Source of the DNA: Thiohalospira halophila DSM 15071
Lineage (GTDB): Bacteria > Pseudomonadota > Gammaproteobacteria > Thiohalospirales > Thiohalospiraceae
Assembly (NCBI RefSeq): GCF_900112605.1
Contig: NZ_FOMJ01000006.1
Coordinates: 62,001-126,000 of the forward strand
Reading direction: 5' to 3'
Length of the DNA: 64,000 nucleotides
The number at the start of each line of letters is the position of its first letter. Position 1 is the first letter of the stretch. Of this stretch, positions 2,887 to 15,461 are shown piece by piece. Under the pieces are notes generated by a model. The model worked only from the letters and a program-made list of their open reading frames with translations. It made no database searches and was not told where the DNA came from. The translations under genes were made by a program, and so were the position numbers.

Positions 2887-8782
<5,896 letters not shown>

Positions 8783-9029: not shown

Positions 9030-11207
9030 TCACTCGGAGCCGGCCCGGGACTCGGCGAGTTCGTCCACGGGGCGGGGCCACGGCCCCAGGTCGCGCACCT
9101 CGGCGGGGAGGTCGTCCACGGCGGCGCGGGCGGTTTCACGATCCGGCCAGGCCCCGGTAACTACCAGGTACCACGGCGTGCCCTCACGCTCCACGGCCAC
9201 CAGGCGGGTCTCGAGGTCGCTCTCCTCGCGGAAGGCCTGGGCGCGCTCCCGTTCCCGGGTGGCGAAGAGCTGGAGGGTCACCTGACCGGCCTGCTCGCGC
9301 AGCCACGCGGCCCCCTCGGCCTCTGCGGTGGACTCGGTGGATTCCTCCGGCACCGGGGCGTTCCCGGGAAGGCGTCCCTGGATGGCGGAGAAGGGCCGCT
9401 GCCAGGGCTCCAGATCGGTGCGCTCCGCCAGCGCCGCGGCGGCCGATTGCGCCGCCTCGGCATCGGCATAGTCGCCGTGGAGGAGCAGGTACCAGCCATC
9501 GGCGGTGAGCACGGTGGCCACGGGATCGGGCCAGTCGCGCCCCTCGGCGGCGCGCTGGACCACCTCCTCGCGGTGGCTGGCCAGCAGCTGCAAGGTGCGA
9601 TGGTCGCCGGGGCGCTGGCGAACCCAGTCGCTGCCGTGGGGGCCGCCGGTCTCCTCGGCCGCCGCGGGCTCGGCCGGCTGAAGGCTCTCCGTCGTCTCTG
9701 GCTCCGGCTCTTCCGGCTCGGGTGCCGCCGGTGCGGTGTCTTCCCGGGCAGACTCGGGCGTCTCGTCGGCCGTGGGCTCGGGCTCCGTGGCGCCGGCCGC
9801 AGCGGAATCCGCTACGCCGGACTCCTCCTGCTCGGGCGGCTCGGCGGTGGGCTCTTCGGGTTCCGGTTCCGATTCCGGTGCCGGCTCGGGTTCGGGGTCG
9901 GGGGCGACCACCCGGAAGCTTGCGGTCCCGGTCCCCTGCCCTTCCGGCGTGGACACGCGGGCGGTCCAGGTGTCGGCGGCCCCCCCAGGGTCGAAGGTCA
10001 CGGCCAGCCGCTGCCCGTCCAGCCGCTCCACGGCGTCGGCCGGGATGTCCCGGGCACCGCCGGTATAACCCAGCCGCACGCGACTCCCCTCGGGGAAGCC
10101 GTCACCGTGGAGGACCAGGCGCTGCTCGCCCTCCCCGGCCGGGACCTCATCGGGCTCCACGCGTTCCAGGGTCGGGCCACCCTCCGCGTCGGCGGGCCAG
10201 CCCTTGAGACGGGGCCGCTCGTCCGCCATGCCTTCCGGGCTCGTGGGGGATCCGCCGGACGACGGCTCCTCCTCCGAGGCCGGCTCGGCCTGCCCTGCCT
10301 CCTCGGGCAGTTCCAGGGCCAGCGGCTCCAGCTCCTTCTCCTCCGAACCGTCGCCGCCCCAGATGGGCAGCAGGGCCACCAGGCCGAGACCGGCGGCGCC
10401 GCCCAGGGCGTAGATCACTCGGCGGTCGGGAGCGAGGGCCAGGCGGGGGCCGCTGCCACGGCCGGCCTTGGCCAGCAGGCTCTTGTGGGCGAGTTCGTTG
10501 ATCCGCGCCGGGTTGCCCCGGGCGGTGCGCTGGATCCGCCGCGCCACCTTGGCCGGGAAGGGGTCCTGCTGGCCGTCAAAGCCGGCCACGCGCAGGCGGT
10601 GGTGGAGATAGGCCGCCGTCTGCGCCGCGGTGAGCCCGGGGATCTGGAGGGTGTGGGTGATCCGCTCGCGCAGGGGGGCGAGTTCGCCGTCGGCCAGGGT
10701 CTCCTCGATGGCCGGCTCGCAGAAGAGGATGACGCGGACCACCGGCCCGCTGTCCTCCTCGCTGTCGGCCAGGTCGAGGATGAGCCGCAGGGCCTCCGCC
10801 CCCAGCCGGTGGGCATCGTCGACGACCAGCAGGGGCGTCCCGCCATGGCCGGCCTGGCGGAGTTGCCGGGTCAGCTCGGCCGGCGTGGAGCCAGGGCCCA
10901 GGCCGAAGGCCTGGCCGATCCGGCCGGCCAGGGAGTCGGCGTCCAGGGCCTCGTCCACCTCCACCTGGCCGATCTGCAGCTCGTTGCGGTTCTCGGCCAC
11001 GAACTGCTGGCGCAGGCTGGTCTTGCCGGCCCCGGCGGGGCCGATGATCATCAGCAGCAGGTCGCCGTAGCGGGCCAGGTGGGCGAGCATGTCCAGCCGC
11101 TGACCCAGCTCGGCGTCCCGATAGAAGAAGTCGGGGTCGGGTTCCGGGGCGAAGGGGGGCCGATCCAGGCCCAGCATCTCCAGGTAGGGGATCTCGCCGG
11201 TGGGCAT
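9030..11207 (-). CDS. DamX-like AAA ATPase with SPOR domains
   Basis: A 725-residue protein in the position of E. coli damX (after aroK-aroB). Residues 1-250 are an ExeA/GspA-type AAA domain: Walker A GPAGAGKTS at about 56-64 and Walker B LLVVDDAH at about 126-133. One membrane segment follows (about 264-284, YALGGAAGLGLVALLPIW). Then come an IPT/TIG-like beta domain (LERVEPDEVPAGEGEQRLVLHGDGFPEG), a long Glu/Pro-rich spacer, and two SPOR-like repeats (HRTLQLLASHREE and QVTLQLFATRERE, each followed by WYLL/WYLV). SPOR domains bind denuded septal peptidoglycan, so a role at the division site is likely. An extended architecture like this is unusual. Its ATG overlaps the stop of the WGR gene. 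Confidence 0.8.
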   Translation of the reverse strand: MPTGEIPYLEMLGLDRPPFAPEPDPDFFYRDAELGQRLDMLAHLARYGDLLLMIIGPAGAGKTSLRQQFVAENRNELQIGQVEVDEALDADSLAGRIGQAFGLGPGSTPAELTRQLRQAGHGGTPLLVVDDAHRLGAEALRLILDLADSEEDSGPVVRVILFCEPAIEETLADGELAPLRERITHTLQIPGLTAAQTAAYLHHRLRVAGFDGQQDPFPAKVARRIQRTARGNPARINELAHKSLLAKAGRGSGPRLALAPDRRVIYALGGAAGLGLVALLPIWGGDGSEEKELEPLALELPEEAGQAEPASEEEPSSGGSPTSPEGMADERPRLKGWPADAEGGPTLERVEPDEVPAGEGEQRLVLHGDGFPEGSRVRLGYTGGARDIPADAVERLDGQRLAVTFDPGGAADTWTARVSTPEGQGTGTASFRVVAPDPEPEPAPESEPEPEEPTAEPPEQEESGVADSAAAGATEPEPTADETPESAREDTAPAAPEPEEPEPETTESLQPAEPAAAEETGGPHGSDWVRQRPGDHRTLQLLASHREEVVQRAAEGRDWPDPVATVLTADGWYLLLHGDYADAEAAQSAAAALAERTDLEPWQRPFSAIQGRLPGNAPVPEESTESTAEAEGAAWLREQAGQVTLQLFATRERERAQAFREESDLETRLVAVEREGTPWYLVVTGAWPDRETARAAVDDLPAEVRDLGPWPRPVDELAESRAGSE

Positions 11208-11458
11208 CAGGGCTGCTCCTCGCCGCGGGTGAAGACGACCCGGTAGCCACGCTTGGCCTGGTCGTCCCGGCGGCGCTGCAGCGCCGCCTCGGCCTCCTCG
11301 CGGGTGTTGAAGTGCTCGCTGCGGACCTGCCCGCGCCCGCCCTGGGGGCCGGACTCCCGGACCAGGTTCCAGCCCCCGAGCAGGTCGGGCTGCAGAAGCA
11401 GCTGGTAGAAACGGGGGTTCTTACCCTCGACGGGCGGCGTCTGCATATAGATCCGCAT
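11207..11458 (-). CDS. WGR domain-containing protein
   Basis: An 83-residue protein consisting of a single WGR domain: MRIYMQTPPVEGKNPRFYQLLLQPDLLGGWNLVRE, then GGRGQVRSEHFNTREEAEAALQRRRDDQAKRGYRVVF. WGR domains, named for a Trp-Gly-Arg motif, occur in PARPs and in stand-alone bacterial proteins and are thought to bind nucleic acid. Here the central motif reads GGRGQVRSEHF. It sits between aroB and the ATPase-SPOR gene and its TGA overlaps that gene's ATG by one base, so translation is coupled. No role in division or aromatic synthesis is known. Confidence 0.85.
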   Translation of the reverse strand: MRIYMQTPPVEGKNPRFYQLLLQPDLLGGWNLVRESGPQGGRGQVRSEHFNTREEAEAALQRRRDDQAKRGYRVVFTRGEEQP

Positions 11459-11585
11459 GGGCTGTCACCGGCTCCCCCGATGGCTCGATCCGATCAATGT
11501 ACCAGCGCCGGGCGTGCGGGGACCACCGCGACGCATTGCCACTGGAGTCCTTGCTTCCGCCGGGACGGGGGTATGGGTACCCTGC

Positions 11586-12698
11586 CTATCCACGCGATAC
11601 GGAGCGGGCCGGCAGGGCGTGGTGTTCGTCCAGGGTGGCGGCCAGGGCCTCCGGATCGTAGTCGGCGGTCACCGTCGCGTTCCCGATGGCGGTGGGCAGG
11701 ACCAGCCGGATCTCGCCGCCCCGGGCCTTCTTGTCCACTCGCATGAGTTCCAGGAAGCGCGCCCGGGAGAGATCCGCCGGGGCCCGGGTGGGCAGGCCGG
11801 CGCGCACGGTGAGCGCCTCGATGCGGTGGACCTCTTCGTCGCTCAGCCAGCCCAGGCGCCGGGCCAGCTCGGCGGCCATCAGGCTGCCCACGGCCACCGC
11901 CTCGCCGTGGAGCCAGCGGCCGTAGCCGATCCCGGTCTCGATGGCGTGGCCGAAGGTGTGGCCGAGATTCAGGAGGGCGCGCTGGCCGCCCTCACGCTCG
12001 TCGGCGGCGACGATGGCCGCCTTGGCCTCGCAGGAGCGGCGGATAGCGGTGGTGAGCGCCGCCGGGTCGCGCTCGGTGAGCGCCCCCATGTGCTCCTCCA
12101 GCCAGGCGAAGAAGTCGGCGTCACCGATGACGCCGTACTTGATGACCTCCGCCAGGCCGGCGGCGAACTGGCGCTCGTCCAGGGTGGCGAGGGTGTCGGT
12201 ATCGATGACCACGGCCCGGGGCTGGTGGAAGGCGCCGATCATGTTCTTGCCCAGACGGTGGTTGACCCCGGTCTTGCCGCCCACCGAGGAGTCCACCTGG
12301 GCGAGCAGGGTGGTGGGCACCTGGACGAAGGGGACGCCGCGCTGGTAGCAGGCGGCGGCAAAGCCGGCCATGTCCCCCACCACGCCGCCCCCCAGGGCGA
12401 CGATGGTGGCACCGCGCTCGAAGCCGCGCTCCAGCAGGCGGGTGAAGACGGGGTCCAGCTGGTCCAAGGTCTTGTAGGCCTCGCCGTCGGGGAGTTCCAC
12501 CCGCTCCACCTCCAGCCCCGCCAGCGCCTGCTCCACCCGTTCGGCATAGAGCGGGCCCACGGTGGTATTGGTCACCACCAGCGCCTGGTGGCCCCGGATC
12601 CCGGCGCGCACCCGCTCCCCGTGCTCCAGCAGGCCGGGGCCGATGTGGATGGGGTAGCTGCGTTCGCCGAGGTCGACTTCCAGTTGTTCCATGGTCAT
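11586..12698 (-). CDS. aroB: 3-dehydroquinate synthase
   Basis: Converts DAHP to 3-dehydroquinate, the second step of the shikimate pathway, using NAD and a divalent metal. About 370 residues, normal length. Clear landmarks are [29 protein letters not shown] (NAD and substrate site), [12 protein letters not shown] and the metal ligands in [11 protein letters not shown] plus E of AEVIKYG. I took ATG 12698; an in-frame ATG at 12692 is equally possible because the ribosome site is weak. The open frame extends into aroK sequence but that part is not homologous. It follows aroK by about 70 nt. Confidence 0.96.
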
Positions 12699-12768: not shown

Positions 12769-13287
12769 TCACTCCTCGCGCCAGGGGCGGATGATCTCGC
12801 GGACCACGGCCCGCGCCGGCCGGTTCCCGGTCTCCACCACGCGATGGGCCGTTTCGCGATAGAGGGGATCGCGCTCGGCCATGAGTGCCTCCAGGCGGGC
12901 GCGGGGGTCCTCGGTCTGGAGCAGGGGGCGGTTGCGGTCGTAACGGGTCCGCTCGTAGAGGTGGCCCGCCGGGGCGTAGAGATAGATGACATAACCCCGC
13001 TCGGCCAGCTTCCGGCGGGTATCGGGATCGAGGACGGCGCCGCCGCCGGTGGCGAGCACCAGCTCGGGCTCCCGGGTCAGCTCGTCGAGGATCCCGCGCT
13101 CGCGGCTGCGAAAGCCCTCCTCGCCCTCGATGTCGAAGATCCAGGGGATACTGGCCCCGGTCCGCTCCTCGATGGCGCGATCGGCATCCTGGAAGGGCCG
13201 ATTCAGGGCGCGGGCGAGCTGCCGCCCCACGGTGGTCTTGCCCACGCCCATGGGGCCCACGAGGATGATTCGATCGGGTGCTTGCAT
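12769..13287 (-). CDS. aroK: Shikimate kinase
   Basis: Phosphorylates shikimate with ATP in the cytoplasmic shikimate pathway. 172 residues, typical. Walker A is [12 protein letters not shown] (about residues 11-22); the shikimate-binding DxD region is [19 protein letters not shown] (Walker B loop) and the lid [11 protein letters not shown] follow. It lies between pilQ and aroB, the classical gammaproteobacterial order. The ATG at 13287 has only a weak GAG upstream. Confidence 0.96.
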
Positions 13288-13346: not shown

Positions 13347-15461
13347 TCAGAGGTCCAGCCGCTGGTCGGCCACCGGCTCCCGGGTGGGCTCCCCCTCCAG
13401 CAGTCTCGGCGTGACGAAGATCAGCAGCTCCGCCTTGGCGTTGACCTCCCGGGTATGGCGAAAGAGGCGGCCCAGCAACGGCAGGTCCCCCAGCAGCGGG
13501 ACCTTCTCCACCTCGCGACTCTGCTCGGTCTCGTAGATCCCGCCGAGAACGACGGTCTCGCCGTTGGTTACTAGGGCCTGGGTGGTAACCTCGCGGGTAT
13601 CCACGCTGGGTACGCCGTTGAAGACCTCGCCCACGCTGTCCTTGCTGATCTCCAGATCCATGATGATACGGCCATCCGGGGTGATCTGCGGCGTCACCCC
13701 GAGGCTCAGAACCGCCTTCTTGAAGGAGACGGAGGTGGCACCGCTGGAGCTCGCCTCCTGGTAGGGGATCTCCACGCCCTGCTCGATGACCGCCTCGTGC
13801 TGGTTGGCCGTGATCACCCGAGGGTTGGAGACGATCTCCCCCTCGTTCTCCGCCTGGAGGGCGGAGAGCTCCAGATCCAGGAGGGTATCGCCGTCGAGTA
13901 CCGAGACGGCGAGCTGGCCGGCGGGATTGCTCACCGGCAGGTCCACGGCCATTCGATCGCCCCCGCCTATACTGGTAACGGCATCATTACCACCGGTATT
14001 GTTCTCACCAATAGCGCTGCCCGTGCCCGAAGCACTCCCGGAAATGGCGGTGGAAACACCACCGTTCGTGTCACTGACATGGCTGGCACCGAAACGGGTT
14101 CCCAGGTCCTCGCTGAAGTCGTCGTTGGCGATGACGATCCGGGTCTCGATCATGACCTGCTGCACCGGCACATCCAGCTCTTCCACCAGCTCCCGGGCGG
14201 AGCGGAGGTTGGCCGGGGTATCCCGGATCAGGATCTTGTTGGTCCGCTCATCCACCCGGACCGAGCCGCGCTCCGAGAGCATGCCGCCCTCCTCGGAGCG
14301 CAGCGTGGAGGCGATATCGGCGGCCTTGGCGTAGTTGACCTGGAGGGTGGTCTTCTCCAGCGGTACCAGCTCGTCCCGCCGCTGCTCCGCTTTCAGACGT
14401 TTGCTCTCGGTATCGAGCAGCTCCTGCTGCGGGGCGATAATCCGGACATCGCCGTCCTGACGCATGCCCAGACCCTTGAGGGTGAGGATGTGGTCCAGTG
14501 CCTGGTCCCAGGGGACATTCTCCAGGTGCATGGTCAACTTGCCCTGCACGGAGTCACTGACCACCATGTTCAGCCCGGTGAACTCGCCGATCCGGAAGAG
14601 CAGGCTGCGGATATCGGCATCCCGGACGTCGAAGGACAGGTGGTCCCCGGTATAGGCCGCCTCCCCGTCTTCCTCCGCCTGCGCTGGCTCCTCGTCGGCC
14701 CGAGGAGAGACCGCCAGGGTCAGCTCCCCGTCCAGGCGATGGAGGCGGTGTTCGGTCTCGCCCTCGGCGTGGACGAGCAGGTGGGCTCCGCCCTGGCGCT
14801 GGCGCACATCCACCCGCTCTACCGGCGTGGCGAAATCGCGTACGTCGTAGCGCCGCCGCTGGCCCTCGGGGACCTCGGCACCGTCGATGAAGAGGCGGTA
14901 GCCGGCCTCGTGACGGCGGATATCGACTTCGCCGCCGGGACCGGAAAGCGCCAGTTTCAACTCCCCCGCCCCTGCCTCGCCACGACGGAAGTCGACCCCC
15001 TCCAGCCGGGCCTCGGCAGTGGACGGTCCCGCCTCGTCGGCATTGGATTCGCCAGCGGCCGATGTCCCGATATCCGTATCCCCGGTTTCGGGTTCCCCGG
15101 GGCCGGGGTCCTGGCCGACCCGGCCCAGGGCGAGCCGGACCCCCTCCTCGGTGGTGCGCAGACGGTGGGCGTGGGGCCCTGGCAGGGTCGCGATGACCCG
15201 GGTCCGCCCGCCGGCCTCGATGACCCGCAGATCGCGGACCGTACCTTCCGCGACCTCCGGATGCCGCTGGACACTGCTGCCGGTCCCCGGCAGGTCCACC
15301 ACCACCCGATGGGGGTCGGCCAGGGTGAAGGAGGTGGGCTCCGCCGACCCGTCGAGAGCGAGATGGAGTCCCTCGTCCGTCGCCCGGACGCCGGTCAGCT
15401 CCGCGGCCTGGCTCGCGCCCGCGCCGAGCAGCGCCAGGGATGTCAGGATGGCTCGCCGCAT
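13347..15461 (-). CDS. pilQ: Type IV pilus secretin PilQ
   Basis: Forms the outer-membrane channel through which type IV pili pass. The 704-residue protein has a signal peptide (MRRAILTSLALLGAGASQAA), two AMIN domains that bind peptidoglycan (about 20-110 and 150-230), a secretin/TonB N-terminal domain (ISFDVRDADIRSLLFRIGEFTGLNMV region, about 270-330), an N1 domain (VNYAKAADIASTLRSEEGG) and the secretin barrel (VSNPRVITANQHEAVIEQG, ending VPLLGDLPLLGRLFRHT). The ATG follows GGAGGAAAAG. It is last in pilMNOPQ. Confidence 0.97.
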   Translation of the reverse strand: MRRAILTSLALLGAGASQAAELTGVRATDEGLHLALDGSAEPTSFTLADPHRVVVDLPGTGSSVQRHPEVAEGTVRDLRVIEAGGRTRVIATLPGPHAHRLRTTEEGVRLALGRVGQDPGPGEPETGDTDIGTSAAGESNADEAGPSTAEARLEGVDFRRGEAGAGELKLALSGPGGEVDIRRHEAGYRLFIDGAEVPEGQRRRYDVRDFATPVERVDVRQRQGGAHLLVHAEGETEHRLHRLDGELTLAVSPRADEEPAQAEEDGEAAYTGDHLSFDVRDADIRSLLFRIGEFTGLNMVVSDSVQGKLTMHLENVPWDQALDHILTLKGLGMRQDGDVRIIAPQQELLDTESKRLKAEQRRDELVPLEKTTLQVNYAKAADIASTLRSEEGGMLSERGSVRVDERTNKILIRDTPANLRSARELVEELDVPVQQVMIETRIVIANDDFSEDLGTRFGASHVSDTNGGVSTAISGSASGTGSAIGENNTGGNDAVTSIGGGDRMAVDLPVSNPAGQLAVSVLDGDTLLDLELSALQAENEGEIVSNPRVITANQHEAVIEQGVEIPYQEASSSGATSVSFKKAVLSLGVTPQITPDGRIIMDLEISKDSVGEVFNGVPSVDTREVTTQALVTNGETVVLGGIYETEQSREVEKVPLLGDLPLLGRLFRHTREVNAKAELLIFVTPRLLEGEPTREPVADQRLDL

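Follow-up and report, generated by a model that had tools for sequence, protein, structure and literature searches.

Genes at the damX position

The window, a 64,000-nucleotide stretch of the Thiohalospira halophila DSM 15071 genome, carries two adjoining genes on its minus strand. The first in reading order (11207..11458) encodes a WGR-fold protein of 83 amino acids, recognized from the list of open reading frames (ORFs), a Pfam match, a structure model and a fold match. The second (9030..11207) encodes a protein of 725 amino acids with the architecture AAA-TM-IPT-SPOR-SPOR, here named DamX-type and defined from the ORF list, Pfam and an AlphaFold model. Their junction reads CCCTGATGCCC (TGATG), in which the stop codon of the WGR gene and the start codon of the large gene share one base, at 11207. 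Both ORFs were originally predicted at these coordinates and on this strand, and the one-base overlap can be read directly. Upstream lie aroB (11586..12698; start inferred by aligning relatives), which is separated from the WGR gene by 127 bp, then aroK (12769..13287) and pilQ (13347..15461; the hofQ position in E. coli), the last two placed by similarity to relatives. The downstream flank is gltB (4313..8782; start inferred). All are on the minus strand, and the four names rest on the usual gene order and on how closely the genes resemble those of relatives.

The order in the window is pilQ-aroK-aroB-WGR-AAA/SPOR-gltB and that in E. coli K-12 is hofQ-aroK-aroB-damX-dam. Therefore, the large gene occupies the damX position, with aroB, the last gene of the pilQ/hofQ-aroK-aroB block, ahead of it. 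Unlike in most relatives, a dgt-like HD phosphohydrolase gene is absent between aroB and the WGR gene (11459-11585), and elsewhere in the source genome only a partial dgt match is found (query residues 10-112 of 382).

The large protein is a non-enteric form of DamX

The large gene encodes a non-enteric form of DamX, a bitopic protein whose AAA+ domain lies in the cytosol and belongs structurally with MuB, TnsC and Cdc6. In the AlphaFold model, built from 30 aligned relatives, residues 1-250 (10458..11207) adopt an AAA fold with a pLDDT mostly >85. This predicted cytosolic domain contains the P-loop GPAGAGKTS, matches Pfam AAA_22 at residues 48-171 (E 1.5e-15; 58.1 bits against a cut-off of 27) and has residues G61, K62 and D130 invariant in the 30 aligned rows. 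Its best structural neighbours are 1fnn (Cdc6/ORC, Z 19.0), TnsC 7plh (Z 18.8) and MuB 8xvc (Z 17.6). The model continues with a membrane helix at residues 262-282 (10362..10424), a disordered stretch at 283-341, a β domain and an acidic Pro/Glu-rich linker at 437-525 (9633..9899), mostly disordered (450-520). Two SPOR-like folds, set apart by disordered linkers, form the C-terminal part, at residues about 526-610 and 625-715. The SPOR domains themselves are placed at residues 527-610 (9378..9629) and 634-716 (9060..9308), and the second is the copy nearest to that of E. coli DamX. Pfam returns SPOR over two stretches of the chain (E 7.3e-15), and in a search of the source genome both copies separately exceed the PF05036 cut-off of 21 (37.2 and 26.6 bits). 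The presence of an AAA domain, a membrane helix, a linker and two SPOR domains in a single 725-residue chain, as originally proposed, is thus agreed on by Pfam and AlphaFold.

The proposed IPT-like domain is a weaker call than AAA and SPOR. Residues about 343-436 (9900..10181) form a confident β-sandwich in the model (345-435, pLDDT mostly >90), and TIG (PF01833) is matched over this region by 12 of the 18 relatives in the alignment, with a best E of 2.4e-06. No Pfam family is matched by the copy in the window, a profile search of the PDB with the IPT alignment gives weak matches (best E 0.06), and the whole-chain fold search is uninformative here, all listed matches coming from the AAA part. 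The domain is best described as IPT/TIG-like.

Assignment to DamX relies on domain anatomy, synteny with E. coli and a SPOR domain resembling that of E. coli DamX. E. coli DamX (damX b3388) likewise follows aroB in the hofQ/pilQ-aroK-aroB block, is bitopic and has a Pro-rich periplasmic linker. Its C-terminal SPOR domain is about 30% identical to that of the window over 79 residues, and the alignment of the two proteins covers the SPOR domain and the Pro-rich linker only. It differs in its length (428 amino acids), in the lack of AAA and IPT and, as the original prediction had it, in its single SPOR domain and the lack of a WGR neighbour; the K-12 neighbours are aroB and dam, and Pfam finds one SPOR and no AAA domain. 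The DamX equivalog model NF008153 scores 63.5 bits, over the SPOR region only, against a curated cut-off of 256. The protein is therefore labelled DamX-type by position and SPOR domain, not equivalog. Another parallel is PA5037 of Pseudomonas aeruginosa, a non-enteric SPOR protein that PMC9712689 calls a DamX homologue. It presumably has the AAA-SPOR form.

The AAA part invites comparison with MuB, TnsC and Cdc6-ORC. The likeness is structural; the window protein is membrane-anchored, its sequence match to MuB reaches only E 0.02, and DNA binding by the modelled AAA+ domain is not implied. The model of the XrtA/PEP-CTERM-associated ATPase family (TIGR03015) also matches the AAA part, at 91.8 bits, but an equivalog would have to reach 324.5. 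Among plasmid records, none has one place covering 80% of the large protein, and the five matches listed all fall in the AAA part.

The original prediction regarded the protein as expanded. This holds relative to E. coli; at the locus itself the AAA-TM-SPOR arrangement is common, and the combination of IPT with two SPOR domains recurs. An IPT domain was found in 28 of 102 AAA-type chains scanned (two sets, with some genomes present in both), and 25 chains combine it with two SPOR domains; 66 have one SPOR only, five have two SPORs without IPT and three have neither. The AAA-IPT-SPOR-SPOR form is an established variant. It is present in four same-family chains from genomes devoid of the WGR gene, so that the expanded architecture is independent of WGR.

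A WGR fold with a mostly lost triad

The WGR fold is best known from DNA-repair enzymes, and in PARPs the W and R of the eponymous triad contact DNA. The small protein of the window, the sole PF05406 match in the source genome, has this fold by Pfam (E 3.2e-09; 37.2 bits against a cut-off of 22) and in a model with a pLDDT of 92. A PARP WGR profile match has an E of 0.0016, and the nearest solved fold by Foldseek is the WGR domain of PARP3 (2eoc; TM 0.76 over the query, probability 1.00, E 2.4e-03). The protein shares its fold with PARP2 and PARP3 but consists of this single domain, and its family has an invariant G29-W30 and a conserved Q39 instead of the triad.

In the window, the W-G-R triad is replaced by S-G-P. 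It is intact in just four of 80 gammaproteobacterial members, and in two of 52 in one alignment set. Of the 80, 41 have W at position 36 and 70 keep Q39, while positions invariant in the 52-sequence alignment include G29, W30, G37, A56 and G71. A conserved face comprises W30, E35, G37, Q39, R64, D65 and Q67. Since the triad is mostly lost, PARP-like binding of DNA ends by the gammaproteobacterial proteins is unlikely, and the residue pattern suggests an altered binding face. The original description as a nucleic-acid-type domain is doubtful for this subfamily.

Distribution of the WGR gene and its link to SPOR genes

An initial search of 56 genomes, the source genome among them, gave a WGR match in 13. 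Of the 12 neighbourhoods besides the window, 10 have it directly before an AAA gene, one reads aroB-WGR-hemE and one contains an unrelated WGR. A wider scan of genomes yielded 323 relatives, and the 80 most similar were retained. Among these best 80, 50 read dgt-WGR-AAA, 11 dgt-WGR-gltB, three have after WGR a gene that matches SPOR but not AAA, and four read aroB-WGR-hemE within 1300 bases, with a SPOR gene in between in two of them; in 10 the WGR gene is relocated (in one before gltB) and two are ended by a contig edge. As such a ranking favours close relatives, the class was then sampled evenly. The even sample comprises 369 Gammaproteobacteria genomes, of which 85 match WGR and 80 clearly so; the weak matches left out are those of G032, G141, G200, G232 and G258, and a second stretch of G091 (L229) was also set aside.

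The subfamily is thus present in 80 of 369 genomes sampled, and in 67 of the 80 the next gene is of the SPOR or AAA-SPOR type (63 AAA genes, three membrane SPOR proteins with no AAA match in their N-terminal part and one secreted-looking SPOR protein). SPOR lies in the same frame as AAA in 54 of the first 62 AAA followers; the follower in L218 is an AAA-SPOR form of 934 residues. Many families of the class share the gene order aroB-(dgt)-WGR-AAA/SPOR-gltB. Given this class-wide distribution in the same position, the WGR gene cannot be termed inserted, as it had been: the window contains the ancestral gammaproteobacterial damX locus.

The coupling of WGR with SPOR, considered unexpected in the original prediction, is recurrent but breaks in five families. 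No frame with both AAA and SPOR matches was found in 13 of the 80 WGR genomes (these five families; several assemblies are fragmented). Other followers include rsmD/coaD-like genes and a periplasmic-adaptor-like gene, both named by eye, and hemE. DamX-type SPOR matches occur in 65 of 80 WGR-positive against 155 of 289 WGR-negative genomes, with a profile that may also catch other SPOR proteins; as the genomes are related and not independent, little weight is given to the p-value of this co-occurrence. Linkage in close relatives, on which the prediction depended, comes out divided: two of 11 same-family genomes have the gene, both linked, eight of one sister genus are without it, and one incomplete genome has neither gene. 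The eight keep AAA-SPOR, seven of them reading dgt then AAA-SPOR and the eighth being ended by a contig edge.

Displacements are of two kinds. In family f76, WGR and AAA-SPOR are found together in foreign surroundings, in two contexts (L216; L226/L227). In Sedimenticola-type genomes (L066, L080, L083 and similar), the WGR gene alone has moved to unrelated surroundings. Five genomes with a displaced WGR, from a set picked for unusual WGR positions or as controls and not at random, were searched for AAA and SPOR in one frame elsewhere; four have it, two of them only by stop read-through, and in the fifth it was not found.

The pairing of WGR with SPOR persists even where the AAA domain is gone. 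Three cases are Dokdonella (L127), Tahibacter (L129) and G375 (L215), where the WGR gene overlaps the gene of a SPOR protein that lacks AAA and begins with what resembles a signal peptide, the SPOR scores being 22.1, 18.9 and 19.7 bits, respectively, against the Pfam cut-off of 21. With a secreted SPOR protein, a physical complex between WGR and AAA cannot be the rule, and direct cytosolic contact of WGR with its neighbour is hard to see in these three organisms.

Several smaller observations concern the same junctions. Xanthomonadales-type loci (L215, L127, L129, L108) have a short secreted-looking SPOR-type protein, without AAA and overlapping WGR, between WGR and hemE; that of L108 is incomplete and has no Pfam match. 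In L219, L220 and L222, WGR is followed by a SPOR protein in which the N-terminal region and the membrane helix are retained but no AAA match is seen, which suggests a decayed ATPase. In one family (L221, L223, L225), WGR precedes a gene resembling, by eye, an RND periplasmic adaptor and not a SPOR gene. Fusion of WGR to a neighbour was considered for long frames in L185, L188, L204, L224 and L019 and rejected, the upstream extension being another frame over dgt or aroB, or intergenic.

Possible roles of the WGR protein

According to PMC9712689, SPOR domains bind denuded septal glycan, and PMC7642682 reports that E. coli DamX stimulates PBP1A and PBP1B. The reading favoured here, tentatively, is that the WGR protein serves the DamX-type septal protein as an ancestral, co-translated accessory, a partnership that we infer. 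By analogy with known SPOR biology, the SPOR pair would bind peptide-stripped septal glycan and place the protein in the division ring; the doubling of SPOR would raise avidity, and the IPT-like domain may act as a spacer or a protein contact. The WGR protein, made together with DamX, would act in the cytosol through its rewired face, on the AAA+ domain or on a client and not on DNA ends. This is the least certain step; taken alone for the septal protein of the window, it is a possibility for which the unpartnered neighbour is a close rival. The WGR protein would also be dispensable, having been lost or re-partnered several times.

The alternative of a neighbour without partnership is a serious one, although it too falls short of being probable. 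Here, an independent cytosolic WGR protein would merely sit beside damX, in an aroK-aroB-dgt-damX-gltB block that is slow to rearrange and co-transcribed. Such independence would account for the WGR genomes devoid of any AAA-SPOR frame (13 of 80), for the eight same-family genomes with AAA-SPOR and no WGR, for the solitary relocation in Sedimenticola-like genomes, and for the other followers in other lineages (rsmD/coaD-like, periplasmic-adaptor-like, hemE and MBL hydrolase genes). It fits less well with the intact pair in the foreign surroundings of family f76 and with a pairing that outlives a change of DamX architecture. It also fits the junctions less well. In most genomes carrying it, the WGR gene lies directly before that of a SPOR protein, and its stop codon frequently overlaps the next start. 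Under one start rule (the most upstream ATG at every junction, which leans towards overlaps everywhere), genes overlap by -4 or -1 at 28 of 67 WGR-SPOR, 16 of 61 aroB-dgt, four of 34 aroK-aroB and one of 63 dgt-WGR junctions. WGR-SPOR is the tightest of the four, but aroB-dgt overlaps nearly as frequently (p 0.09), which weakens the contrast. As a candidate for the true partner of WGR, dgt was rejected: it precedes WGR in 63 of 80 genomes, yet that junction overlaps in one of 63, and a dgt-like gene is missing at the window locus.

A more specific form of the accessory reading is unlikely. The triad-less WGR would have become a cofactor in the cytosol, dedicated to a septal AAA+ protein that is membrane-anchored and akin in structure to DNA-coating ATPases (MuB/TnsC/ORC), and the pair would report a cytosolic cue, possibly the state of the nucleoid, to septal peptidoglycan synthesis. 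If so, this would be an input to division in the many Gammaproteobacteria that keep the operon, and one absent from E. coli.

A regulatory role is more improbable still. If WGR bound nucleic acid to regulate its own transcript or operon, it would be tied to any gene that follows, in line with its upstream place, its variable partners downstream and its description, in PMC4275035, as a predicted nucleic-acid-binding domain; against this, the triad of DNA-binding WGRs survives in so few of the 80 gammaproteobacterial members. A recent insertion before damX in the source genome, to which the absence of WGR from E. coli and from the eight same-family genomes could point, is scarcely credible in view of the same position in many families, an identity of 50-61% in the first 11 relatives aligned and a WGR gene in place in the same-family genus g2.

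Whichever role applies, the WGR protein is a small conserved uncharacterized gene product for study alongside DamX. To our knowledge, work on DamX has been confined almost entirely to E. coli, whose protein has no ATPase. The predicted-active AAA+ domain in many DamX-locus proteins outside E. coli suggests an energy-dependent septal input invisible in the model organism. No description of WGR linked to SPOR or DamX was found in the literature searched, mostly without subscription papers; the WGR-SPOR operon and the loss of the triad appear undescribed, while the DamX assignment in non-enterics was already known.

WGR proteins in another class of the phylum

Full-length WGR relatives occur in >40 genomes of the phylum outside Gammaproteobacteria, and the neighbourhoods of 20 of these full-length matches were analysed (L230-L249, e.g. 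L230:3873-4779). In 19 of the 20 loci, WGR precedes, on the same strand, a gene for an MBL-fold hydrolase, one of which gives a Pfam Lactamase_B match with an E of 3.8e-26. The triad is intact in 16 of the 20 and reads W-G-K in three more. Its loss in Gammaproteobacteria and its retention here, beside a different gene, constitute a natural experiment on WGR folds outside PARPs. Several of these loci also have a divergent upstream gene, the start of which resembles, by eye, a JAB/JAMM protein.
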